This document shows, piece after piece, positions 2,850-28,453 of a DNA stretch of 29,118 nt. The translations under genes and the position numbers were made by a program. The DNA is from a virus. The stretch covers positions 1-29,118 of the IMG/VR virus record IMGVR_UViG_3300033148_003050; one strand, written 5' to 3'. Position 1 is the stretch's first letter. Each line of letters begins with the position of its first letter. Below the pieces are notes generated by a model that worked only from the letters and a program-made list of their open reading frames with translations, had not been told where the DNA came from and did not search any database.

Positions 2850-3287
2850 ATGCCGAAATACAACAATAAACGCCTCATTCTATATATAGTTCTACTAATT
2901 GCTATCCTTATTATTTGGTGGATAATATCTGGGTTTTTATTTGATGAAAGTACCCCCGAAACACAACTAATGGATTGCTTTACCGCCCAGGTAAATATGC
3001 CTTATTATGTGCGGACATATACTCTTGGAACTATTATTGAACAAGTTATAATTTGTGAAAGCGGCGGGAATCATTATGATAGCAATGGTGAAATACTTAG
3101 AGGAAAAGCAGGCGAATGGGGATTATGTCAATTCAAACAGAAAACTTGGGATATGTTTAATAAGGAAAGAGGAACTAATCTTGATATAGAAAGCAAGGAA
3201 GACCAGTTAGATATGATAAATTGGGCATTTGAAAAAGGTTATCAATATCATTGGACGTGTGCTAAAGGTCTTAATCAAATAAATTAA
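2850..3287 (+). CDS. Membrane-anchored lysozyme/lytic transglycosylase-like protein, 145 aa
   Basis: Residues about 9-30 (LILYIVLLIAILIIWWII) form an N-terminal membrane anchor or signal-anchor. The rest resembles a small soluble-lytic-transglycosylase domain: the catalytic-type Glu70 in VIICESGGN, then GKAGEWGLCQFKQKTW, then a helix ending in an aromatic/Cys motif (YQYHWTCA). Such enzymes cleave glycan strands of peptidoglycan; with a signal anchor it could be held inactive in the membrane until holins act. The last residues (AKGLNQIN) look like an accidental extension: their codons form a TAAAGGTCTTAA element one frame away. Enzyme class is likely, exact bond cleaved is not shown. Confidence 0.75.
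   Translation: MPKYNNKRLILYIVLLIAILIIWWIISGFLFDESTPETQLMDCFTAQVNMPYYVRTYTLGTIIEQVIICESGGNHYDSNGEILRGKAGEWGLCQFKQKTWDMFNKERGTNLDIESKEDQLDMINWAFEKGYQYHWTCAKGLNQIN
3263..3274 (+). promoter_or_regulatory. TAAAGGTCTTAA element inside the transglycosylase gene end
   Basis: The element is read through in frame as A-K-G-L near the C-terminus of the gene at 2850. AGGTC starts 26 bases before the ATG at 3292, and the following bases (AATCAAAT) match the copy at 28424 (CAATCAAAT). Confidence 0.45.
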
Positions 3288-3291
3288 AATT

Positions 3292-3462
3292 ATGCCAAAG
3301 AAAAAAGTAATAAAGAAAGTAGTAAAGAAGAAAGTAAAAAAAGTAAAACCAGAAACTCCTGTAGAATCTCCTGTGGAAACTCCCGAAGTTCCTAAAGCTC
3401 CTGTGGGATTACCAACAGATGACCCAGTAAACGCTCCACAACAAGTTGGATTACCAGTTTAA
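3292..3462 (+). CDS. Lysine-rich small protein with Pro/acidic tail, 56 aa
   Basis: The first 19 residues are almost only K and V (MPKKKVIKKVVKKKVKKVK), resembling histone H1-like tails; the rest is proline- and acid-rich (ETPVESPVETPEVPKAP) and ends in two GLP motifs (PVGLPTDDP, QQVGLPV). The strongly basic front suggests binding to DNA, RNA or teichoic-acid-like polymers; the disordered tail gives no fold. It is the last gene of the lysis transcription unit, four bases after the transglycosylase stop and just before two hairpins, the second a terminator. Function unknown. Confidence 0.65.
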   Translation: MPKKKVIKKVVKKKVKKVKPETPVESPVETPEVPKAPVGLPTDDPVNAPQQVGLPV

Positions 3463-3550: not shown

Positions 3551-3592
3551 AGTTATTAACTATTGACAAGCGTCAATGCTTTATGATAGAAT
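3551..3592 (+). promoter_or_regulatory. Promoter with upstream box, start at the ATG
   Basis: TTGACA (3563-3568), 18-base spacer, TAGAAT (3587-3592). The ATG at 3599 is the seventh base after the -10 box, so a leaderless mRNA is expected. AGTTATTAAC (3551-3560) matches the box upstream of the promoter at 2501. The -35 hexamer sits in an inverted repeat TTGAC-AAGC-GTCAA, a possible operator. Confidence 0.75.
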
Positions 3593-3598
3593 AGAAGT

Positions 3599-4069
3599 AT
3601 GACCAGAAAAGAAATGATGATACAGCTAAAAGACAAAAGATATACTTATCAAGCAATAGGCGATATTTTTGGTATAAGTCGTCAAAGAGTTCATTCTATT
3701 ATTACTGGATATAAATCTCCTTGTGATAAAAAAATAACAACACGAATTTTACCTGGATGGAAAGCAAGTGGAATTTATAATAGTAAAGGATTGGGTAAAT
3801 TCACTGGGACAGATTTCTTGGCAGAATTAGTAAGAAGGAGAGATAATTATACTTGTCAGATATGCGGAAAAGTATGGCAAGAAGGACAAAGAAGATTTGA
3901 TACCCATCATTTAGATGAAGAAGATGAAAATAATCATACTTATGAGAATTATAAAAAGCTTGATAGAATGATTACTTTGTGTCATAAGTGTCATATGAGT
4001 TTGAAACATATAAAAAGAAAAATGGCAAAAATAAGAAATAAAAGGTTTTCCACTGTTAGGGGGGGTTGA
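3599..4069 (+). CDS. HTH-HNH endonuclease, 156 aa, probably leaderless
   Basis: Residues about 15-40 (TYQAIGDIFGISRQRVHSII) form a helix-turn-helix. From about residue 85 comes a zinc-bound HNH nuclease: CQICGKVW, then FDTHHLDEEDENN, then TLCHKCHMSLK, giving four zinc cysteines and the His-His catalytic type. The protein therefore couples sequence-specific DNA binding to cutting, as in phage homing nucleases. It follows the lysis terminator and has its own promoter whose start coincides with the ATG. The next gene, another HTH protein, is also driven by a start-codon promoter. It may be an autonomous mobile nuclease or a regulator; the first is more likely. Confidence 0.8.
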   Translation: MTRKEMMIQLKDKRYTYQAIGDIFGISRQRVHSIITGYKSPCDKKITTRILPGWKASGIYNSKGLGKFTGTDFLAELVRRRDNYTCQICGKVWQEGQRRFDTHHLDEEDENNHTYENYKKLDRMITLCHKCHMSLKHIKRKMAKIRNKRFSTVRGG

Positions 4070-4093
4070 CAATGTCGCTGGCTTTGCTATAAT
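4044..4093 (+). promoter_or_regulatory. Promoter before HTH gene, start at the ATG
   Basis: TTGACA (4066-4071), 16-base spacer, TATAAT (4088-4093), ATG at the seventh base after it. Twelve bases before the -35 lies GGTTTTCCAC (4044-4053); the promoter at 10554 has AGTTTATCCAC the same twelve bases upstream. The two promoters may therefore share a regulator. The upstream box lies in the end of the HNH gene. Confidence 0.8.
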
Positions 4094-4099
4094 GGGAGT

Positions 4100-4327
4100 A
4101 TGATGAGAAAAAGAGACAAAGAGTTAATAAGTATTAGAGATGAAGTAATCTGTTCAGCGTGGGAAAGATATAAGAACCAGATAAGTATGGATGAACTTGC
4201 TGGTTTTTTTAATATATCACTTAAGAGTATTTATCGGATAATAGCCCAAAAATCGGGCTACCCTATTAAAAAGAAACCAACTAAAAAACAAATAGATAAT
4301 TTAATAAAGATAATCAGAAAATCTTAA
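4100..4327 (+). CDS. Small helix-turn-helix protein, 75 aa, probably leaderless
   Basis: Residues about 30-50 (ISMDELAGFFNISLKSIYRIIAQ) give a clear helix-turn-helix of the resolvase or sigma-region-4 type. The ends are basic (MMRKRDKE at the front, PIKKKPTKKQIDN at the back). There is no catalytic domain, so a DNA-binding regulator is the natural reading. Its own promoter shares an upstream box with the promoter before the capsid operon (10554), so it could be an autoregulated switch for late genes; this is inference. Two starts are possible, ATG 4100 or 4103. With 4103, GGGAG would lie four bases upstream, but the predicted mRNA starts at 4100. Confidence 0.7.
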   Translation: MMRKRDKELISIRDEVICSAWERYKNQISMDELAGFFNISLKSIYRIIAQKSGYPIKKKPTKKQIDNLIKIIRKS

Positions 4328-4360: not shown

Positions 4361-4561
4361 ATGACTAAAGAACAAATACAACGAGTTATAAAGATTTGGG
4401 GCAAGAACTATAAGCCAAGTGATGTACCTGTCTTATGGAGGGAAGAAAGAGAGAACTATATGAAAGATAAGTATACTCCTGATTTAGAAGAATTAGACGG
4501 ACACGCTGAAGAAGTTAGTGGAAAAGCTGAAGAAGCCGAAGATAAATTAAGGTATCAGTAA
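4361..4561 (+). CDS. Hypothetical protein, 66 aa, paralogous tail with gene at 4853
   Basis: MTKEQIQRVI... is a charged, helical protein. The N-terminus (VIKIWGKNYKPSDVPVLWREERENYM) is unlike anything I recognise. The last residues, GKAEEAEDKLRYQ, closely match the end of the protein at 4853 (REKQAEDKLNYQ), and both genes end with the same junction, TAA-T-ATG. This points to shared cassette ends rather than shared function. It is the first gene after the HTH regulator's unit and is followed two bases later by a 45-residue gene. Confidence 0.55.
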   Translation: MTKEQIQRVIKIWGKNYKPSDVPVLWREERENYMKDKYTPDLEELDGHAEEVSGKAEEAEDKLRYQ

Positions 4562-4562
4562 T

Positions 4563-4700
4563 ATGTTTTACGAATTACACACCTCAAAATGGAGCTTAGA
4601 GATGATAGCCGAGAACTTCCAAGATTGGCTATATCAAAGCTGTATTGAGAGGGATAAAGAGGAAAGAGAAAAAGAGGAAGAAGAGGAATTAACAAGTTAA
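4563..4700 (+). CDS. Small acidic helical protein, 45 aa
   Basis: MFYELHTSKWSLEMIAENFQ, then DWLYQSCIERDKEEREKEEEEELTS. The first half is amphipathic with aromatic residues, the second a highly charged helix. No family is recognised. It starts one base after the previous stop in the common TAAT-ATG junction. Its stop codon (4698-4700) overlaps the first bases of the pseudoknot strand of the structured RNA that follows, so ribosomes ending here would cover that strand. Translation of this gene could thus influence the RNA fold. Confidence 0.55.
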   Translation: MFYELHTSKWSLEMIAENFQDWLYQSCIERDKEEREKEEEEELTS

Positions 4701-4842
4701 TGAGTCATCTTCGGGGGATAAGAATCGGGGCTTACAAAGAACTTTTTAATGGTAGGGGTGACTCATTCCATTAAGGGGATTCCAAGTAAGTTCATCTGGC
4801 GAAAGCGAGATGTCAAAAATCCCAATTCTTTTTCCCCGAAGA
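4699..4842 (+). ncRNA. Candidate structured RNA or cis-regulatory element: three-way junction with pseudoknot
   Basis: Positions 4708-4730 pair with 4820-4842 in a 23-base-pair helix in constant register, with only a T-T (4719/4831) and a C-A (4726/4824) mismatch and two G-U pairs. Inside are two hairpins. Hairpin A spans 4731-4790: CTTAC/GTAAG, GAA/TTC, then an 11-pair stem ending TTAATGG/CCATTAA. Hairpin B spans 4793-4812: CATCT/AGATG, a G-G mismatch, GC/GC and a GAAA tetraloop. The loop of A contains TGACTCATT (4759-4767), perfectly complementary to AATGAGTCA (4699-4707), just 5' of the closing helix. G-U pairs and the GNRA loop only make sense on the plus strand. The helix ends ten bases before the ATG at 4853. 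I cannot match it to a known family; it could be a riboswitch-like leader, a protein-binding element or a free RNA. Confidence 0.75.
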
Positions 4843-4852
4843 AACTAAAACT

Positions 4853-5221
4853 ATGATTAAACAAAAAACAGACCAAGAATGGTCAAAAATAAGGTTTCAA
4901 AATAGTTTAGGGCCCCAAATTGGCGGAATTGGGCACGATGTGGCTGTTTATATGGCGGCTGGGCTTGAACCTACTAAAAAGAATATAGATAATGTTAAGA
5001 AATGGATTGATACTTTATATGAAATAGCAGAGCAAAAGAAAGCCCAACTAACAGAAGTAAAACCCCTAAATATAGAAAAGGCAGTAAAACTGGGAGATAA
5101 GTGGAGAAAAGAAACTAAAATCGGCTATGAAGAAAATACAGAAGAAATAAACAAAAAGATACAATCAGAAGTAGATGAGGGCAGAGAAAAACAAGCTGAA
5201 GATAAACTTAACTATCAATAA
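4853..5221 (+). CDS. Hypothetical protein, 122 aa, behind the structured RNA
   Basis: The N-terminal part (WSKIRFQNSLGPQIGGIGHDVAVYMAAGLEPTKKNIDNVKKW) is a compact helical domain; the C-terminal half is charged coiled-coil with the ending QAEDKLNYQ shared with the gene at 4361. I do not recognise the family; helical proteins of this kind occur among small phage accessory genes. The structured RNA ends ten bases before the ATG, so this is the most likely regulated gene. There is no Shine-Dalgarno sequence apart from GAAGA within the closing helix. The stop is followed after one base by the next ATG. Confidence 0.6.
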   Translation: MIKQKTDQEWSKIRFQNSLGPQIGGIGHDVAVYMAAGLEPTKKNIDNVKKWIDTLYEIAEQKKAQLTEVKPLNIEKAVKLGDKWRKETKIGYEENTEEINKKIQSEVDEGREKQAEDKLNYQ

Positions 5222-7242: not shown

Positions 7243-7608
7243 ATGAAAAGCAAGAAACAACAATTAAGGGATAAAGCAGATAAACTTTGGAAACAAGTAA
7301 TAATAGGAAACAAAACTCTATGCGAGGTATGTGAGAATGAACCGATAAATACCGCTCATCACTTTTATACTCGGTCAAACTTCGGGCATTTAAGATATAA
7401 TATAAATAACGGTATCGCTATTGGAAAAGAATGCCACTTTGCTCATCACCACAAGGGAGACCCTTCAATTCACGCAAGAATAATAAAAAAGCGAGGTTTT
7501 AAATGGTATGAAGATTTGCGGGATATATCAAGAGAAAAACCAGCGAGTTATCAGAGTATTAAGTATTATTTGGAAACAATAGAACAATTAAATAATATAG
7601 AGCAGTAA
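7243..7608 (+). CDS. HNH-type zinc nuclease related to NinG/Rap-like proteins, 121 aa
   Basis: The core is CEVCENEPINTAHHFYTRSN, then LRYNINNGIAIGKECHFAHH: a zinc-type CxxC, an A-H-H in the place of the catalytic His, an L-R-Y-N...N-N-G segment and a second metal part (KECHFAHHH). The order recalls phage recombination nucleases of the NinG/Rap group and other small HNH proteins encoded before terminase genes, where HNH proteins often assist packaging. It is 940 bases upstream of the small terminase. Nuclease fold likely; whether it acts in recombination or packaging cannot be told from sequence. Confidence 0.65.
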   Translation: MKSKKQQLRDKADKLWKQVIIGNKTLCEVCENEPINTAHHFYTRSNFGHLRYNINNGIAIGKECHFAHHHKGDPSIHARIIKKRGFKWYEDLRDISREKPASYQSIKYYLETIEQLNNIEQ

Positions 7609-7613
7609 AACAT

Positions 7614-7751
7614 ATGAAGAAGATACCAAAATGGGTAAAAGAACCAGCATTATGGAGAACTTGTGAGTTTATTTGTAGTAAAGCGGGGGAAAAGAAACTC
7701 ATAGAATATATTAGAAGATTTGACCAAATATATAAAACCCAAAAAGAATAA
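7614..7751 (+). CDS. Small basic hypothetical protein, 45 aa
   Basis: MKKIPKWVKEPALWRTCEFI, then CSKAGEKKLIEYIRRFDQIY and KTQKE. A single basic, probably helical domain with two cysteines and three tryptophan/phenylalanine anchors. No family recognised. It starts five bases after the HNH stop and ends 20 bases before a GC-rich hairpin. Real coding is supported by position and the uninterrupted gene-sized frame in a gap that would otherwise be empty. Confidence 0.5.
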   Translation: MKKIPKWVKEPALWRTCEFICSKAGEKKLIEYIRRFDQIYKTQKE

Positions 7752-8544: not shown

Positions 8545-8886
8545 ATGCCACAACAAGACACACAATTTAAATCGGGGGCAGAATGGAAAGGGAATGCTAA
8601 AGGCAGGCCTAAAGGAAAGACCATTAAGGAGTTAGTAAGAGAATGGTTAGAAGACCACCCAGATGATATGAAAGCATTTGTAGAGCATTTTGTTAAGAAG
8701 AATAAAGAGTTAGCTTGGCAAATGTTAGAAGGCCGCCCTCAACAAGATATAACTTCGGCAGGAGAAAAGATTATTCCTGTCCCTATTTTAGATGTATCAA
8801 AGAACCCAAGCAACAACAAAGATACAGAAACTGACAAAGAGGGTGAGAATCGTTCAGGGGGGGACATCAGCCAGCAAAACAGTTAG
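8545..8886 (+). CDS. Terminase small subunit-like protein, 113 aa
   Basis: FKSGAEWKGNAKGRPKGKTI matches the opening of small terminase/DUF5681-type proteins ('F..G...N..GRPKG'), followed by helices (IKELVREWLEDHPDDMKAFV) and the Q-M-LEGRP segment typical of this family. The role is recognising phage DNA and loading the packaging motor. The reading frame continues 95 bases into the large terminase gene; the last ~30 residues (DTETDKEGENRSGGDISQQN) are low-complexity and probably tolerated because that DNA must encode the Walker A motif of the partner. Assignment rests on the N-terminal motif and gene order. Confidence 0.75.
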   Translation: MPQQDTQFKSGAEWKGNAKGRPKGKTIKELVREWLEDHPDDMKAFVEHFVKKNKELAWQMLEGRPQQDITSAGEKIIPVPILDVSKNPSNNKDTETDKEGENRSGGDISQQNS

Positions 8887-9973
8887 CATAATAATCTACT
8901 TGATAGCTCTGGCTCAAAGTGATGTAGTAAAGACCCTTACAAGTATAGTATCTGAATCATTCCCTCATTTGAGAAGAGGAGCAGAACGGGACTTTTTGAA
9001 TATAATGAAAGAGCATCACTATTTCAAAGACAAGCTGTGGGATAAGACAAACCATACATATACTTTTGAAACAGGTTCAGTAATAGAGTTCTTTTCTGTT
9101 GACCAGCCCGAAAAGGTAAGAGGAGCAAGGCGGGATAGGCTATTTATCAATGAAGCTAATAATGTTCCTTTCTATGCTTTTGAAGAGTTAGAGGTAAGAA
9201 CCAAAGATATTATCTTTATTGACTATAATCCGACCAATGAGTTTTGGGTATTCACAGAAGTAATGCCAAAGAGAGATGATGTAGAAACTATCATATTGAC
9301 ATACAAGGATAATGAGGCGTTAAGCAAAGAGATAGTTGATTCAATAGAACAGCGTAGGAATAGAAGGGATTGGTGGCAGGTTTATGGATTAGGACAGTTA
9401 GGAGTAATAGAGGGCAGGATTTACAAGGATTGGAAGATTATTGATGAGATACCCCACGAAGCAAAGTTAGAGAGATATGGATTGGACTTTGGCTATTCAA
9501 ATGATCCTACGGCTATAGTAGGAATTTATAAATACAATCAGGGCTTTATTTTAGATGAGATAGTATTTCAAAAGGGTTTGAGTAATAAACAGATTGTTGA
9601 TGCTTTACAAACCCAAACACAAGCATTGGTAATAGCTGATTCAGCAGAACCAAAGAGCATTGACGAAATTAAAAGTTATGGCATACCTATACTTCCAACT
9701 ATTAAAGGAAAAGACAGCGTTTGTCAGGGAATACAATATGTTCAAGACCAGAAGATAAGTATTACCAAGCGGAGTGTAAATATAATTAAGGAGTATAGGA
9801 ACTATTTATGGGAAATGGATAAAGACGGCAGAACCCTTAATGTTCCAGAACATCAATTCTCTCATTCAATGGACGCAATAAGATATGGAATGGCATATAA
9901 TATAAACTATGAGAAGCCATTAGACCAGTTTAAACATAATTTAAATGTTAGAGAGGAGAACTCAACAAAATGA
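8792..9973 (+). CDS. terL: Terminase large subunit, 393 aa
   Basis: This is the ATP-driven DNA packaging motor and nuclease. Walker A is GGTSASKT at residues 23-30, Walker B LFINE at 117-121 with catalytic Glu121, and the coupling motif IDYNPT is near 143-148. The C-terminal RNase H-like nuclease shows Asp232 in YGLDFGYSNDP, Asp283 in IADSAEP and Asp361 in HSMDAIRYG. Length is at the short end for the family but all motifs are present. The ATG at 8792 directly follows an in-frame TAG, so no longer form is possible; the Walker A region lies inside the 95-base overlap with the small subunit gene. Its stop overlaps the next ATG. Confidence 0.95.
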   Translation: MYQRTQATTKIQKLTKRVRIVQGGTSASKTVSIIIYLIALAQSDVVKTLTSIVSESFPHLRRGAERDFLNIMKEHHYFKDKLWDKTNHTYTFETGSVIEFFSVDQPEKVRGARRDRLFINEANNVPFYAFEELEVRTKDIIFIDYNPTNEFWVFTEVMPKRDDVETIILTYKDNEALSKEIVDSIEQRRNRRDWWQVYGLGQLGVIEGRIYKDWKIIDEIPHEAKLERYGLDFGYSNDPTAIVGIYKYNQGFILDEIVFQKGLSNKQIVDALQTQTQALVIADSAEPKSIDEIKSYGIPILPTIKGKDSVCQGIQYVQDQKISITKRSVNIIKEYRNYLWEMDKDGRTLNVPEHQFSHSMDAIRYGMAYNINYEKPLDQFKHNLNVREENSTK

Positions 9974-10966: not shown

Positions 10967-12784
10967 ATGAGTAAATATAATCAAACGATTGGCAACAATC
11001 CGATCGGGGAACTCGTCCGAAAGGCTGAGGCGGATTATACTATAGGGGAAACTACTGTTTCCAAATATGTATCAGAGAACTTCTATGAAGACCTTAATAA
11101 GATAGATGCTTATTTAAACTCAAAGCATATTTCAGGAGATAAGGATTCTCTTGATAGGGATAAGCCGTTTTTTAACATTGTCTTGGCAGCCAGAAATATC
11201 TGGTTCAGGGCAACTGACATTGATAGAAAGAATATACGGATTAAAGCTGGGAAATCAAAGGACTTCTTGGCTTCTTTTTTAGCGACAGTTCATTTACAGG
11301 ATTATATGAAAAGAGAAAACTTCGGGCAGTTTCTTAATGACTGGGGATTAACTCTGGCTTCATACAATTCAGCTGTAAGTAAGTTTGTAGAGAAAGGGGG
11401 CAGATTACATACCATAGTTATCCCCTGGCAAAGAATAATAGTTGATTCTATTGACTTTTACAATAATCCCAAAATAGAGATATTAGAATTAACAGAAAAC
11501 CAAATAAGAAAGAACAAAGCATACGACCAAGATATGGTGGATAAGCTGTGTGAAACTATTGCTGCTAGAGAAATTATTGATAAAACCAAAAAGGATAACA
11601 AAGCAGAATACATCAAGTTATATGAGGTTCACGGAGAGCTACCATTATCATATCTTACAGGAGAAGAAGATGACCAAGATGAGTTTGTCCAGCAAATGCA
11701 CGTTATATCATTCGTAGCAGGAAAGGATAAAGGAGATTTTGATGACTTCACTCTGGTTAGCGGTAGAGAAAAGCAAGACCCTTACTTGTTGACCTCTTTA
11801 ATAAGGAATACAGACGGCTCTATCTCTCTTACAGGTTCAGTTAAGAGTTTGTTTGAAGCTCAATGGATGGTAAATCATTCTGTAAAGGCAATAAAAGACC
11901 AACTGGATTTAGTGTCAAAAGTAATCTTTCAGACATCAGACGGAAACTTTGTAGGACAAAATGCTCTGACTAATATAGAAAACGGAGCAATAATGATACA
12001 TAAAGAGAATCAACCTTTAACCCAGATGGCAAACACTTCCCACGATATAACATCATTACAGAACTTCGGACGGCAATGGCAGTTATTAGCTCAAGAATTA
12101 ACTTCAACGCCAGATATTATGAAAGGACAGAATATGCCGTCAGGAACAGCATTCAGACAGGCAGCCATAATCCAGCAAGAATCTCATTCTAACTTTGAGA
12201 TAATGACCGAGAATAAAGGATTGGCGATTGAGGAAATGATGAGAAAATATATAATCCCTTTCCTTAAAAAGAAAATGGATACATCAGAAGAAGTATCAGC
12301 TACTTTAGAGGATTATGATATTACCAAGATTGATTCAATATATATCCCCAATGAGGCAGTCCGCAGGTTTAATAAAAAGTCAGTTGAAGCCGTTATAAAT
12401 AGAACGCAGCTTCCAAACCTTGAACAAGAAGCAATGGGAGTTGAACGGGAATTAGGAGTTTTGGGAAACGAAAGATTCTTTAAGCCATCAGAGATTTCAA
12501 CTAAAACTTGGAAAGATATATTCAAGGACTTTGAATGGATAGCAGATGTAGAGATTACAGATGAAACAATAGACAAAGAACCTGTCTTGACAACTTTGTC
12601 AAGTGTATTGCAAACAATAGCGGGTAATCCTATGATATTACAAGACCCAAATGCTAAAATGCTGTTTAATCATATTTTAGAAGAAACGGGTCGTATCTCT
12701 CCTGTTGAACTATCTATTGCTTCAAATCAAAGGACACCAATATCGCCAACGCAAGAAACAACACAACCAGTAGAAATAAAGTAG
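10967..12784 (+). CDS. Portal protein, 605 aa
   Basis: The portal is the twelve-subunit ring at one capsid corner through which DNA enters and leaves. Evidence is position (after terminase, before scaffold and coat), length typical of short-tailed phage portals, and sequence features: DRDKPFFNIVLAARNIWFRA in the wing region, alternating helix/strand in the middle, and the long helical part with ITSLQNFGRQWQLLAQELTS, followed by the 'TPDIMKGQNMPSGTAFRQAA' stretch seen in such portals. The C-terminus, TGRISPVELSIASNQ, is duplicated with different codons at the end of the following HNH gene. This suggests that the portal 3' end was replaced during a homing event. Confidence 0.85.
   Translation: MSKYNQTIGNNPIGELVRKAEADYTIGETTVSKYVSENFYEDLNKIDAYLNSKHISGDKDSLDRDKPFFNIVLAARNIWFRATDIDRKNIRIKAGKSKDFLASFLATVHLQDYMKRENFGQFLNDWGLTLASYNSAVSKFVEKGGRLHTIVIPWQRIIVDSIDFYNNPKIEILELTENQIRKNKAYDQDMVDKLCETIAAREIIDKTKKDNKAEYIKLYEVHGELPLSYLTGEEDDQDEFVQQMHVISFVAGKDKGDFDDFTLVSGREKQDPYLLTSLIRNTDGSISLTGSVKSLFEAQWMVNHSVKAIKDQLDLVSKVIFQTSDGNFVGQNALTNIENGAIMIHKENQPLTQMANTSHDITSLQNFGRQWQLLAQELTSTPDIMKGQNMPSGTAFRQAAIIQQESHSNFEIMTENKGLAIEEMMRKYIIPFLKKKMDTSEEVSATLEDYDITKIDSIYIPNEAVRRFNKKSVEAVINRTQLPNLEQEAMGVERELGVLGNERFFKPSEISTKTWKDIFKDFEWIADVEITDETIDKEPVLTTLSSVLQTIAGNPMILQDPNAKMLFNHILEETGRISPVELSIASNQRTPISPTQETTQPVEIK
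12586..12603. repeat. Inverted repeat CTTGACAA-CT-TTGTCAAG in the portal gene
   Basis: Eight-base arms separated by two bases, within the coding sequence and 180 bases before the HNH insertion point. Could be an operator or nuclease recognition site, or chance. Confidence 0.3.
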
Positions 12785-15635: not shown

Positions 15636-15637
15636 GT

Positions 15638-15714
15638 AACTCCCCTAATTATTGGGGGAGTTGAGAGCGTGCCTCTCACCGATTCACGCTCTCTATTTCC
15701 CCCGTAAAATGGGG
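15638..15714 (+). other. Tandem stem-loops after the coat gene with alternative pairing
   Basis: Hairpin 1: AACTCCCC (15638-15645) with GGGGAGTT (15655-15662). Hairpin 2: GAGAGCGT (15663-15670) with ACGCTCTC (15686-15693). Hairpin 3: CCCC (15700-15703) with GGGG (15711-15714). Alternatively GGGGG (15654-15658) pairs with CCCCC (15699-15703) and encloses hairpin 2 as one long stem, excluding hairpins 1 and 3. No T run follows, so mRNA end protection, processing or an expression step-down between coat and tail genes is more likely than simple termination. Confidence 0.6.
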
Positions 15715-15724
15715 ACAGAAATAT

Positions 15725-18643: not shown

Positions 18644-19786
18644 ATGTATATAAACTCAGACATAGCGGAAATAAAATGGGATACATTAGATGGCTGGGTA
18701 GATGAAGACAGTAATGGCGGGGTTTCATCTCTTGATTTTCCTTATACTCAACTTTATCTAAATCTTATAGGAGCAACTGACGATGCTATAGCTTCAAGGT
18801 CTAAAGACATAGGAACAATAGGAACTGGAGATTATTATATTGAGATTAGATTTAAAGGAGATGTATGGGATGGATACGCTGGTAATTATGGATTCCGTTT
18901 ATTAATAGATGCGGGAAGTCAGCGCTTTCTTTGTTATTTGGGAAATGGATATTCTGGTGGAGATGGGCTTTACATAGATGACGGAACTACCAGACCAAGA
19001 GTTATTGATAAAACTTGGGATAATGAGTGGCATACCCTTGTATTCTATATTCATAATAGCCAGACAGATTGTGATATTTGGGTAGATAAAGACCCTTCAG
19101 AAGCAGCAGATGTAACTGACGCAGATTGTAGTGACCAAGCTGCAGCAACAGATGGACTTGTAGTTCTAAATGGTGCTGGAAGTGTTGCTGGGGACGGGGA
19201 ATACCATATAGATTATATACTTATCGGAAGCGATTTAAATAGGACAGATACGGGATGGTGTCAGGCTTCAGCCACAGGAGAAACTTATAATGACTTTGAT
19301 AATGGAGATAGGGCTTATATCACAGATGACAATTATGCTGTTGGCGGTCAACTTGAATATCAAGATTATTACAATTTTGATTTTAGTGTTCCTTCGGGAG
19401 TAAAAATACTTGGAATAGAAGTATCTATAGAAGCCAAAGTAGATACTTCTGAATGCGGTATACAGACAGCCGTAGGAAATCCAGTTTATTCTGCTATTAA
19501 AAATAATTATTGGCCACCAGATTTAGTAGATTATACCAAAACCTATGGCGGTTCAACTGATTTATGGGGAAAAACTTGGGATTCAGATGATTTTACAAAT
19601 GCTAATTTTAGGGTAAGATTTCAGGCTAACTTTGCTGGTGGTGGAACTTGTCTGGTAGACCAAATTAAAGTAAAAGTTTATTATCTTGATGTTTTATCAG
19701 GTTTAAAATCAATTAACGGTGTAGCAGTAGGGTCTATTAAAAGTGTTAATAGTATAGATTCTGCTAATCTTAAAAGTGTAAATTAG
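18644..19786 (+). CDS. Jelly-roll tail protein with C-terminal repeats, 380 aa
   Basis: The first half is a LamG/concanavalin-like sandwich (DYYIEIRFKGDVWDGYAGNY, then NEWHTLVFYIHNSQTDCDIW). A second beta domain follows (YYNFDFSVPSGVKILGIEVS, then DFTNANFRVRFQANFAGGGT). It ends in short repeats, LKSINGVAVGSIKSVNSIDS then ANLKSVN, of the 'KSxNGV/SI' type found at ends of phage fibre proteins. I start at ATG 18644 in the TAAT-ATG junction; an in-frame TTG lies five codons upstream. Likely a glycan-binding tail component. Confidence 0.7.
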   Translation: MYINSDIAEIKWDTLDGWVDEDSNGGVSSLDFPYTQLYLNLIGATDDAIASRSKDIGTIGTGDYYIEIRFKGDVWDGYAGNYGFRLLIDAGSQRFLCYLGNGYSGGDGLYIDDGTTRPRVIDKTWDNEWHTLVFYIHNSQTDCDIWVDKDPSEAADVTDADCSDQAAATDGLVVLNGAGSVAGDGEYHIDYILIGSDLNRTDTGWCQASATGETYNDFDNGDRAYITDDNYAVGGQLEYQDYYNFDFSVPSGVKILGIEVSIEAKVDTSECGIQTAVGNPVYSAIKNNYWPPDLVDYTKTYGGSTDLWGKTWDSDDFTNANFRVRFQANFAGGGTCLVDQIKVKVYYLDVLSGLKSINGVAVGSIKSVNSIDSANLKSVN

Positions 19787-26185: not shown

Positions 26186-28426
26186 ATGTCAAGTGGAAAA
26201 CTAACTAAAAAACAAAAACTATTAAAAGCAATAAAAGAAGGTAGAGTTATAGACGACATTACTGCCGTGTCTTGGATATTCCAAGAGAAAAAAAGAGATG
26301 AGCTTATCAAAGAGATTATCCCGTTAGCCAAAGGTGATAAGGGTGAAATTGGTTTAACTGGAAAACAAGGAATACAAGGTGTTATTGGTTTAACTGGAAA
26401 AGACGGAAAAGATGGCAAAGATGGCAAAGATGGAATAAAAGGTATTGACGGCAAAACCCCTGTTGCTGGTATTGATTATCCTTATCCAAAAGACGGAAGT
26501 CCTGATACAGGAGAACAGATTGTTGATAAAATAAATAAACTGTCTGAAGATTATCGGATTGATAAAAAACATATTAAAGGATTAGAGGAATTATCAAGAA
26601 AGATTGTAGGAGGAGGAAGCATAGCCAGACACTTTTATCAGTTATTTGATACCCCAGAAAATTATGCAGACAAAACGGGACAATACTTAAGAGTAAATAC
26701 AGGAGAAACAGGATTAGAGTTTTATGATTTAAAAACATATATTGATGATGCTATTGGAGCAGAAAACCTCTGGGATAGAAGTGATAGTACTTTAACACCG
26801 CATAATGCTGGAGATGATGTAAGTTTGAAAGATGATAATTATCTTTATTTTGATACCGCAAAAACAGTTGGGATAGGATATTCTACCGACTTTTCTGATG
26901 TTTGGTTAAAAGGGGGTAATCTTTGGGCAAGTGGTCAGATGTATATTGGTGCCAATGCAGGAGTCGATGGAAGTGGAAATTGGGAACCATATTTTAGATT
27001 GTTAGCAGATGGAAGCACTATATTTCAGAATGTAAGTCAGGGTGATGCTGCAGATAGGCATTATGATATTAATTTTACTGACAGCGTAAGAATAACTTCA
27101 GGGGGGTTACATTTACAAACAAGTGGAAGTAAGAAGGCAATCATAGAAGCAGATAACATAGCCACCTCAGACAAAACCTTCCAATTCCCTAATATAGCAG
27201 GAACTCTTTTAACCACAAACGGGGCTTTAGCTAATATAGATATAGGAGCATATAGTTTTGAAGCCGATACTATTACAGACGGCACTTTAACAATAACAGG
27301 CGGAGATTTATCTACAACAGGTTTCCTTGATATGACAGGTGGACATATTGAAGTGCCAGACCCAGAACACGATTACGATGCTGTTAATTATCAAACATTA
27401 GCTGAAGCAATACCAGGTGGACTTCAGTGGTATTTGTCGAATGACGCAAGTGCTGATGTAGGTAGTTATAAATTACTTGATACTGACAATGACGCTGGTC
27501 AGACAGCAGTAACCGTTGATGGAACATCTGACGGGCAATCAATAGGCAACTGGGTAACTCTTGCTGCAACTCCAGGAGATATAACAATATCACCAGGAAA
27601 TATAACAGCCCACCTATTCGCAAAAGTAGCCAGAGCAGGTTCTACTGATTTCTTATATCAATTAAAGATTCAATTCTACAAAAGGGCATCAGGCGGAACA
27701 GAAACACAATTAGGAGAGGATGTAACTACATTGCCAGTTTTAACAGCAACAACAACCACTTATTATGCCCACGCTCATATTGTAGAACCAGTAGCTTTAT
27801 CGGCTGGCGATAGAATTGTTATAAAGATTACTACAGTTAGAACTGGGTCAGCACCAAGAACAAACGCACAAGTAGTAACGCTCTATATTGGAGATGAAAC
27901 CCCATCACATCTTGACCTTCCAGTAACTTTGGGTATTTTGAGTAGGTATGTTCCCTATACTGGTGCAGATACAACTGTGGCTTTAGGAACACAGAGTATA
28001 ACAATGACTGGTTCTATTTCTGATACGACTAATCGGGTAACTAAACTTTGGGCAACAGATATAGAAAGCACTAACGATATTACGATAGGTGGAACCGCAT
28101 TAGCTTCTACTTATGCCGCAATAGCACAAACAATGTATATCGGGACTACACAGGTTGCTATTAACAGAAGTTCTGCCGCATTAACTTTAGCAGGAATTAC
28201 ACTAACAACTCCTGATATTGGAACGCCATCAGCAGGTGTATTAACTAACTGTACGGCTTTACCAGCAGCCCAAGTTTCAGCAGGAACATTTGCAGGTGCT
28301 TTAGAAGCAGCAGACCACGGAACAGCAGCAACTGACCAAATAATCAATGTCTCTTATGGAACAGGAGAGCCACCTGCGGCAAATACAACAACAATAGGGA
28401 GCTTATTTATAAAATACACAGCTTAA
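26186..28426 (+). CDS. Tail fibre with collagen-like segment, 746 aa
   Basis: Residues 1-50 are a charged helical front (KLTKKQKLLKAIKEGRVIDD), probably the virion anchor. Then come about 14 Gly-X-Y triplets (GDKGEIGLTGKQGIQGVIGL, then TGKDGKDGKDG), which form a collagen-like triple helix, and a fibre motif (GQYLRVNTGETGLEFYDLKT). The rest is beta-rich with repeats of the type 'TDGTLTITGGDLSTTGFLDM' and a lectin-like domain (WYLSNDASADVGSYKLLDTD to VALSAGDRIVIKI), ending IGSLFIKYTA. A trimeric receptor-binding fibre is the natural reading. It starts after the structured intergenic region; its stop leads into another AGGTC element. Confidence 0.82.
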   Translation: MSSGKLTKKQKLLKAIKEGRVIDDITAVSWIFQEKKRDELIKEIIPLAKGDKGEIGLTGKQGIQGVIGLTGKDGKDGKDGKDGIKGIDGKTPVAGIDYPYPKDGSPDTGEQIVDKINKLSEDYRIDKKHIKGLEELSRKIVGGGSIARHFYQLFDTPENYADKTGQYLRVNTGETGLEFYDLKTYIDDAIGAENLWDRSDSTLTPHNAGDDVSLKDDNYLYFDTAKTVGIGYSTDFSDVWLKGGNLWASGQMYIGANAGVDGSGNWEPYFRLLADGSTIFQNVSQGDAADRHYDINFTDSVRITSGGLHLQTSGSKKAIIEADNIATSDKTFQFPNIAGTLLTTNGALANIDIGAYSFEADTITDGTLTITGGDLSTTGFLDMTGGHIEVPDPEHDYDAVNYQTLAEAIPGGLQWYLSNDASADVGSYKLLDTDNDAGQTAVTVDGTSDGQSIGNWVTLAATPGDITISPGNITAHLFAKVARAGSTDFLYQLKIQFYKRASGGTETQLGEDVTTLPVLTATTTTYYAHAHIVEPVALSAGDRIVIKITTVRTGSAPRTNAQVVTLYIGDETPSHLDLPVTLGILSRYVPYTGADTTVALGTQSITMTGSISDTTNRVTKLWATDIESTNDITIGGTALASTYAAIAQTMYIGTTQVAINRSSAALTLAGITLTTPDIGTPSAGVLTNCTALPAAQVSAGTFAGALEAADHGTAATDQIINVSYGTGEPPAANTTTIGSLFIKYTA

Positions 28427-28435
28427 AGGTCTCAA
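28424..28435 (+). promoter_or_regulatory. TAAAGGTCTCAA element
   Basis: Stop codon followed by AGGTCTCAATCAAAT. The first A past the stop lies 27 bases before the ATG at 28454, and the downstream bases match the copy at 3263. Confidence 0.45.
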
Positions 28436-28453
28436 TCAAATTAAAATAATAAT

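Follow-up and report, generated by a model that had tools for sequence, protein, structure and literature searches.

Transcription attenuators depend on mutually exclusive RNA structures, one of which is an intrinsic terminator. In H-type pseudoknots, e.g. the operator of phage T4 gene 32, a hairpin loop pairs with sequence outside of the hairpin, while the RNase III sites of phage T7 are long stems located between the genes of a polycistronic mRNA. The packaging RNA of phage phi29 combines a long end helix, a three-way junction and a loop that is able to pair. Furthermore, the put RNA of phage HK022 acts by itself on the elongation complex (PMC9378689), and in the plant pararetrovirus shunt, a short ORF ends 7-8 nt before a stem that is followed by a UA-rich landing site (PMC5902531).

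Here we analyzed a structured RNA of an IMG/VR virus record of 29118 bases (hereafter the window, i.e., the whole stretch of DNA under analysis). Its layout, which consists of a flank strand (X), a long stem (P1) and an inner hairpin (P2) that carries the complement of X (X') in its loop, is repeated in unrelated sequences of related phages.

Structure and position of the element

A 152-nt gap, within which the structured RNA lies, separates a 45-codon ORF (4563-4700) from a 122-codon ORF (4853-5221). The features of this region are:

4563..4700, plus strand: upstream ORF of 45 codons (ORF list), whose stop codon at 4698-4700 overlaps X
4699..4707, plus strand: X, the flank strand AAUGAGUCA, complement of the P2 loop (sequence, descriptor score and shuffle test)
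4708..4730, plus strand: 5' strand of P1, with pair probabilities near 1 for most pairs
4731..4791, plus strand: P2 hairpin of 6 + 3 + 11 pairs with a 3x3 internal loop, a bulge and a 15-nt loop at 4753-4767
4759..4767, plus strand: X', the loop strand UGACUCAUU, an exact reverse complement to X that directly adjoins the 3' strand of P2
4793..4812, plus strand: P3 hairpin with a GAAA tetraloop (fold prediction)
4820..4842, plus strand: 3' strand of P1, including UUCUUUUU at 4826-4833
4777..4833, plus strand: weak terminator-like alternative, GGGAUU (4777-4782) with AAUCCC (4818-4823) enclosing P3, then AAUUCUUUUU
4853..5221, plus strand: downstream ORF of 122 codons, with its start 10 nt past the end of P1

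An earlier note, made from the sequence of the window alone, had described P1 (4708-4730 with 4820-4842) as a 23-bp helix in one register. The single register was confirmed, but 21 of the 23 positions pair (19 Watson-Crick and two G-U pairs, 4717-4833 and 4730-4820); U4719/U4831 and C4726/A4824 are mismatched, and the MFE fold gives G4730 the partner U4791 rather than U4820. Its other structural observations were recovered, i.e., the fold predicted two hairpins inside the helix, one of them (P3) with a GAAA tetraloop; the strands of P2 (4730/31-4752 with 4768-4791) enclose a loop whose last nine bases are exactly complementary to the nine bases 5' of the helix; and the upstream stop codon overlaps X, with the ATG at 4853 ten bases beyond P1. 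The stop codon is separated from P1 by 7 nt, and the 10 nt between P1 and the ATG are A/U-rich.

The region 4690-4860 has an MFE of -61.9 kcal/mol, compared to -36.0 +/- 3.9 for dinucleotide shuffles (z of -6.63), and none of 200 shuffles folded as well. Among 1160 stretches of 150 nt from both strands of the window, the one at 4701 ranked first for both z and energy, which upholds the claim of pairing far beyond chance. The structure between the two small genes is real. Its assignment to plus-strand RNA also held, as the predicted fold of the plus strand is the more stable one (-60.6, vs. -51.1 for the minus strand), with three U-G pairs (4743-4745 with 4775-4777) contributing. We discarded the possibility that the inverted repeats are a mobile element (MITE), given the better plus-strand fold and the absence of a second copy from the record, and a coding explanation was rejected because no ORF of at least 40 aa spans 4701-4852.

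The earlier note had matched this RNA to no riboswitch or ribozyme family, and Rfam 15 at the gathering threshold indeed gave no match in the window or in seven relatives. At a permissive threshold, the best match was snoR60, antisense, at 21.8 bits vs. the 40 needed, and nothing was credible. No homologue was found by searching named phages with the element sequence or by blastn of the window RNA against the relatives, and two exact DNA patterns were not found across IMG/VR. A covariance model (R1), built from the single window sequence and run on ~165 loci (84 sources and 81 more) and 8 records, found nothing beyond the window element itself; it also scored the minus strand of this element at 28 bits, as expected for a long inverted repeat. 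Because there is no sequence homologue, there is no covariation for the window element, whose sequence is not conserved even in comparison to phages with a 77% identical terminase. PHROG and Pfam searches with the upstream ORF gave no match. At the search sensitivity applied, IMG/VR contained no relative of the downstream ORF, which thus yielded none as a search handle; the portal protein yielded two further relatives, L187 and L188, in which a scan for flank-loop elements gave no match.

Occurrence in related phages

Relatives were gathered by terminase, their genes being simple ORF calls, and were scanned for the topology of a flank strand directly followed by a long stem, within which a hairpin loop carries the flank's complement. 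In a fixed-geometry scan, X was required to adjoin P1, and X' to adjoin the 3' strand of the inner hairpin. Since the descriptor thresholds were chosen after the window element had been seen, the result rests on the controls with shuffled sequence and real genomes. Over 1.7 Mb, the fixed-geometry scan gave nine matches of at least 70, vs. none in three block-shuffled copies. These represent eight distinct elements, L007 and L153 being one contig, with scores of 83 (window), 82 (L016), 79 (L158), 76 (L058), 76 (L055), 75 (L096), 73 (L053) and 73 (L007). The window element has the geometry of the flank-loop class and is the top scorer in the 1.7 Mb. A 266-kb control set (lambda, T4, phi29, SPO1, two terminase-related phages and E. 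coli) contained no match of at least 70; two lambda coding segments scored 65-66. A differently built scan gave nine matches vs. none in two shuffles, three of the nine lying wholly inside ORFs and two being the same contig.

Altogether, the layout was found in ~15 intergenic elements of terminase-related uncultured phages, and one relative contig has three such RNAs, each before a different gene. The element sequences are unrelated, except for a trio (L007, L096 and the L158 element at 19436) with a common X, AAACTTCTACA, and loop, GGTTATGTAGAAGTTTCC. Within this trio, P1 is completely different and P2 differs, both still pair, and X and the loop are kept. Outside the trio, the loops have no conserved bases and there is no alignable sequence, and geometry is what the members are seen to share.

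The window layout is repeated in L155 (reverse complement 12281-12390), by an element of the phage of L082, which has a 77% identical terminase. This element begins at the upstream stop codon and consists of X (AATTGGTTGC), a P1 of 17 pairs, and X' (GCAACGAATT, one mismatch) in a 17-base loop, with 11 bases to the ATG. In L071:1931-2025, a CCTTATG/CATAAGG pair was seen by eye in an element that ends a few bases before an ATG; the automatic test placed P1 differently and gave no score. In the element at L002:11376-11447, which lacks a terminator, AAACTTACC/GGTAAGTTT is flush on either side, and a long P1 with a GAAA hairpin is present upstream of the terminase of the same phage (L002:1763-1906). 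Further GAAA hairpins were found in L155 (reverse complement 7561-7660) and L053:6270-6393.

We assessed flank-loop pairing in 17 long-stem elements that, the window excepted, were picked regardless of X. Composition-shuffled flanks paired as well as X:X' of the window with a probability of 0.003, and pairing was also significant in L155 (p of 0.023), L002:11376 (0 of 300 shuffles) and L053:6270 (p of 0.013, not flush). As significance was reached in few of the 17, flank-loop pairing is a property of a subset of intergenic stems. Pairing with the element's own flank did not differ on average from that with the 3' flank over 306 candidate stems, because most of the candidates are noise; several known elements ranked near the top.

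Individual elements had further features. Two tandem copies of X (AAAACTTCTACAACAAAACTTCTACA) precede the hairpin at L007:2983-3007, giving two possible partners for X'. At L158:9890-10045, a terminator hairpin lies upstream; its 3' arm serves as X, its T run forms the 5' strand of P1, and X' in the next hairpin resembles its 5' arm. The element at L096:3594-3700 lies directly before a NUMOD3/HNH homing-endonuclease-like gene. At L125:363-448, a Shine-Dalgarno-like GGGGAGG is located in the 3' strand of P1, directly before an ATG; this is a possible translational version, with a score of 69 that is close to the noise level.

Overlap with intrinsic terminators

In eight elements (L007, L016, L053, L055, L058, L096, L158 at 18126 and L158 at 19436), the 3' strand of P1 also supplies the loop and the upper part of the 5' arm of an intrinsic terminator, with a T run behind it; in L158 (19436), it lies mostly inside the terminator loop. 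A scan that required this overlap gave scores of 90-106 for its best five matches, vs. a shuffled maximum of 74. Because the strand is common to both, the full P1 and the terminator are mutually exclusive, and this sharing of pairing strands is good evidence for switching in the eight elements. When X and X' were held open, P1 plus P2 was favored over the terminator arrangement by ~4 to 15 kcal/mol in seven of the eight, the exception being L158 (19436). With X:X' allowed in a nested fold, X:X' plus terminator dominated at the end in L053 and L158 (19436) and had a large share in L016. Thus, mutually exclusive structures that include an intrinsic terminator, as in attenuators, are present in all eight. 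In the window, we found only the weak terminator-like alternative at 4777..4833 (-15.5 kcal/mol), which ends in a U-rich stretch, is incompatible with P1 and P2 and was not among the terminators listed by a scan of the window, and that scan listed no clear terminator for the element. Extended -10-like sequences were seen by eye near X in L007, L055 and L096, away from upstream ribosomes, so control by a ribosome cannot be general.

Predicted order of folding

Prefix folding, an equilibrium calculation in a nested model without pseudoknots from which the order of events is deduced, gave X:X' a probability of at least 0.8 directly after transcription of X' in 12 of 15 elements, and later strands displaced it. 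The earlier note had described a pseudoknot candidate; these folds do not demonstrate a static pseudoknot, as the nested model predicts a pairing that forms first and is then lost. No linker separates X from P1, and at ~29 bp, the combined length of P2 and X:X' exceeds that of P1 (~22 bp), suggesting that X:X' of the window may be an alternative to the full P1, or transient. This differs from H-type pseudoknots in that the partner of the loop lies directly 5' of a 20-28-pair stem with no loop to span it, which makes full coexistence doubtful.

Genomic context

The large terminase gene of the window (8792-9973) lies ~4 kb downstream of the RNA, and TerL was assigned to ordinary large terminase families. 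A Shine-Dalgarno core was found in 1 of 47 window genes, and several neighboring genes in the operon are separated by 1 nt or overlap by 4. Near-perfect sigma-70 promoters are present at 2501-2536, 3563-3599 and 4066-4100, with the -10 box 5-8 nt before an ATG. Messages from these promoters are probably leaderless, in agreement with the near absence of Shine-Dalgarno sites. The sole close match in the genome collection was a contig binned with a Nanoarchaeia MAG, which may have been misbinned, since the window has bacterial-type promoters.

Other arrangements were observed in the window. The ORFs that flank the RNA region (4361-4561 and 4853-5221) have similar ends, AEDKLRYQ and AEDKLNYQ, followed by TAATATG, and this segment may have arisen by a duplication on both sides of the RNA. 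A repeated TAAAGGTCTNAA followed by an A-rich stretch occurs upstream of start codons at 305-338, 2274-2307, 3263-3296 and 28423-28445, and might be a signal that this phage uses in translation or that is linked to stop codons. At 1051-1135, a 12-of-12 sigma-70 promoter is followed, before an HNH-like gene, by the mutually exclusive complementary blocks GGTGGGTAGGTC, GCCCACC, GACCTACCC and GGTGGGC, which together look like a miniature attenuator; just before this promoter (972-1043) are the H-type-like complementary blocks AGGGAACGGG-ATAGGT and CCCGTTCCCT-ACCTAT. Finally, a long hairpin (15636-15724) follows the window gene that has a weak Phage_capsid_4 match. Such a hairpin is present in nine related phages, the window included, the other loci being L071:15753-15873, L003:12643-12765, L082:8748-8843, L002:10651-10770, L006:6656-6747, L187:7665-7758, L188:13870-13955 and L117:9982-10071. 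Its apical loop is often CCACC(GA)-like, and in L071 and L003, an X/X' pair (ATTAGCTTAATA / TATTAAGCTAAT) overlaps the stop codon.

Discussion

We tentatively propose, at somewhat short of an even chance, that the window element is a cis-acting mRNA switch which refolds as it is transcribed, is sensitive to the occupancy of X and belongs to the recurrent flank-loop set. Folding would proceed in two steps. The emerging X' would pair with X over 7-12 bp; upon arrival of the later 3' strands, P2 and P1 would displace X:X', the exclusion of X:X' by P1 being complete or partial. Whether a terminating ribosome, a protein or an antisense RNA occupies X would then decide which structure wins. In the eight relatives' elements, P1 would serve as an antiterminator that X:X' opposes, resulting in a transcription attenuator. 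In the window, where the terminator seems absent or degenerate, the output would likely be posttranscriptional: P1 might close off the 152-nt gap or shield the start of the next gene, in an operon where Shine-Dalgarno sites are nearly absent, and a ribosome that has reached the upstream stop codon would sit on X. The L155 element, in which the stop codon adjoins X and 11 nt lead to the ATG, matches this layout and was counted for the switch. The earlier note had also suggested a switch, and the idea is plausible in that the same topology recurs and eight relatives' elements share strands with an intrinsic terminator.

These eight elements resemble transcription attenuators in that P1 and the terminator use a common strand and are mutually exclusive, while X:X' competes. 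They differ in the competitor, which is a hairpin loop paired with the strand just 5' of the hairpin, and in having no known leader peptide, protein or ligand; the window element, moreover, has no clear terminator and may be linked to attenuators by geometry only. Like HK022 put, these are cis-acting phage RNAs that may let polymerase pass terminators (PMC9378689). The difference is that an RNA strand of the relatives' elements is itself part of the terminator.

An alternative, which we consider unlikely, is that the element is an RNase III-type processing or stability site between cistrons, as in T7 mRNAs, with P1 being cut or protecting the ends and X:X' being incidental or a folding guide. 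P1, with 21 pairs over 23 positions, has the length of the roughly two-turn duplex of an RNase III site, and of the 59 intergenic regions with a length of 70-260 nt in close relatives, 14 contain a long closing stem (z>3 over shuffles). This reading leaves the flush geometry of X:X' across many elements and the sharing of strands with terminators unexplained, and to our knowledge, neither flank-loop pairing nor terminator sharing has a counterpart in the T7 sites.

It is quite improbable that P1 acts as a bridge for translational coupling by bringing the stop codon at 4698-4700 near the start at 4853 for reinitiation. The 7 nt from stop codon to stem and the 10 nt from stem to start, with an A/U-rich landing stretch, resemble the 7-8 nt and UA-rich landing site of the plant pararetrovirus shunt (PMC5902531); the scarcity of Shine-Dalgarno sites and the close spacing of neighboring genes are in keeping with coupling, and the layout is repeated in L155 and L071. 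However, the placement of stems relative to stop codons was not significant in a random-placement test over 25 stems (p of 0.14), the shunt is a eukaryotic 40S mechanism that is not established in bacteria, and structure directly after a stop codon tends to reduce coupling (PMC12548453). Coupling also assigns no role to X:X'.

A stand-alone RNA excised from the operon transcript, i.e., a phi29-like packaging RNA, an sRNA or a decoy, is very unlikely. The elaborate fold, with its long end helix, three-way junction and loop able to pair, also intermolecularly, recalls the phi29 RNA, and the earlier note had drawn this analogy. Yet the window RNA lies inside an mRNA between genes, the scan of the window listed neither a promoter nor a terminator specific to it, the large terminase of the phage is ordinary and the RNA is not conserved along with it, and relatives have several different elements before different genes, as many as three in one contig; membership in the phi29 class is therefore not supported. 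A new class of ligand-binding riboswitch appears extremely improbable, for although the pseudoknot-like topology and the terminator overlap in relatives recall several riboswitch leaders, no unpaired bases are conserved across elements, the downstream genes are structural genes, endonuclease genes or of unknown function rather than metabolic ones, and Rfam gave no match.

Returning to the refolding switch, it is conceivable, although we hold this with some doubt, that the elements constitute an undescribed class of phage RNA switches, defined by a topology in which a loop pairs with an upstream strand, opposes the basal stem and controls a terminator or access to the next gene, and found, in some phages several times, across a large group of uncultured tailed phages. 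Judging from a limited literature search, the flank-loop set has probably escaped description. If correct, this would reveal a layer of control that is invisible to sequence-based family searches, as geometry alone is kept, and a compact attenuator design that bears on the tuning of operons without Shine-Dalgarno sites. Topology-based scans would then be able to find regulatory RNAs that are missed by Rfam-type models.
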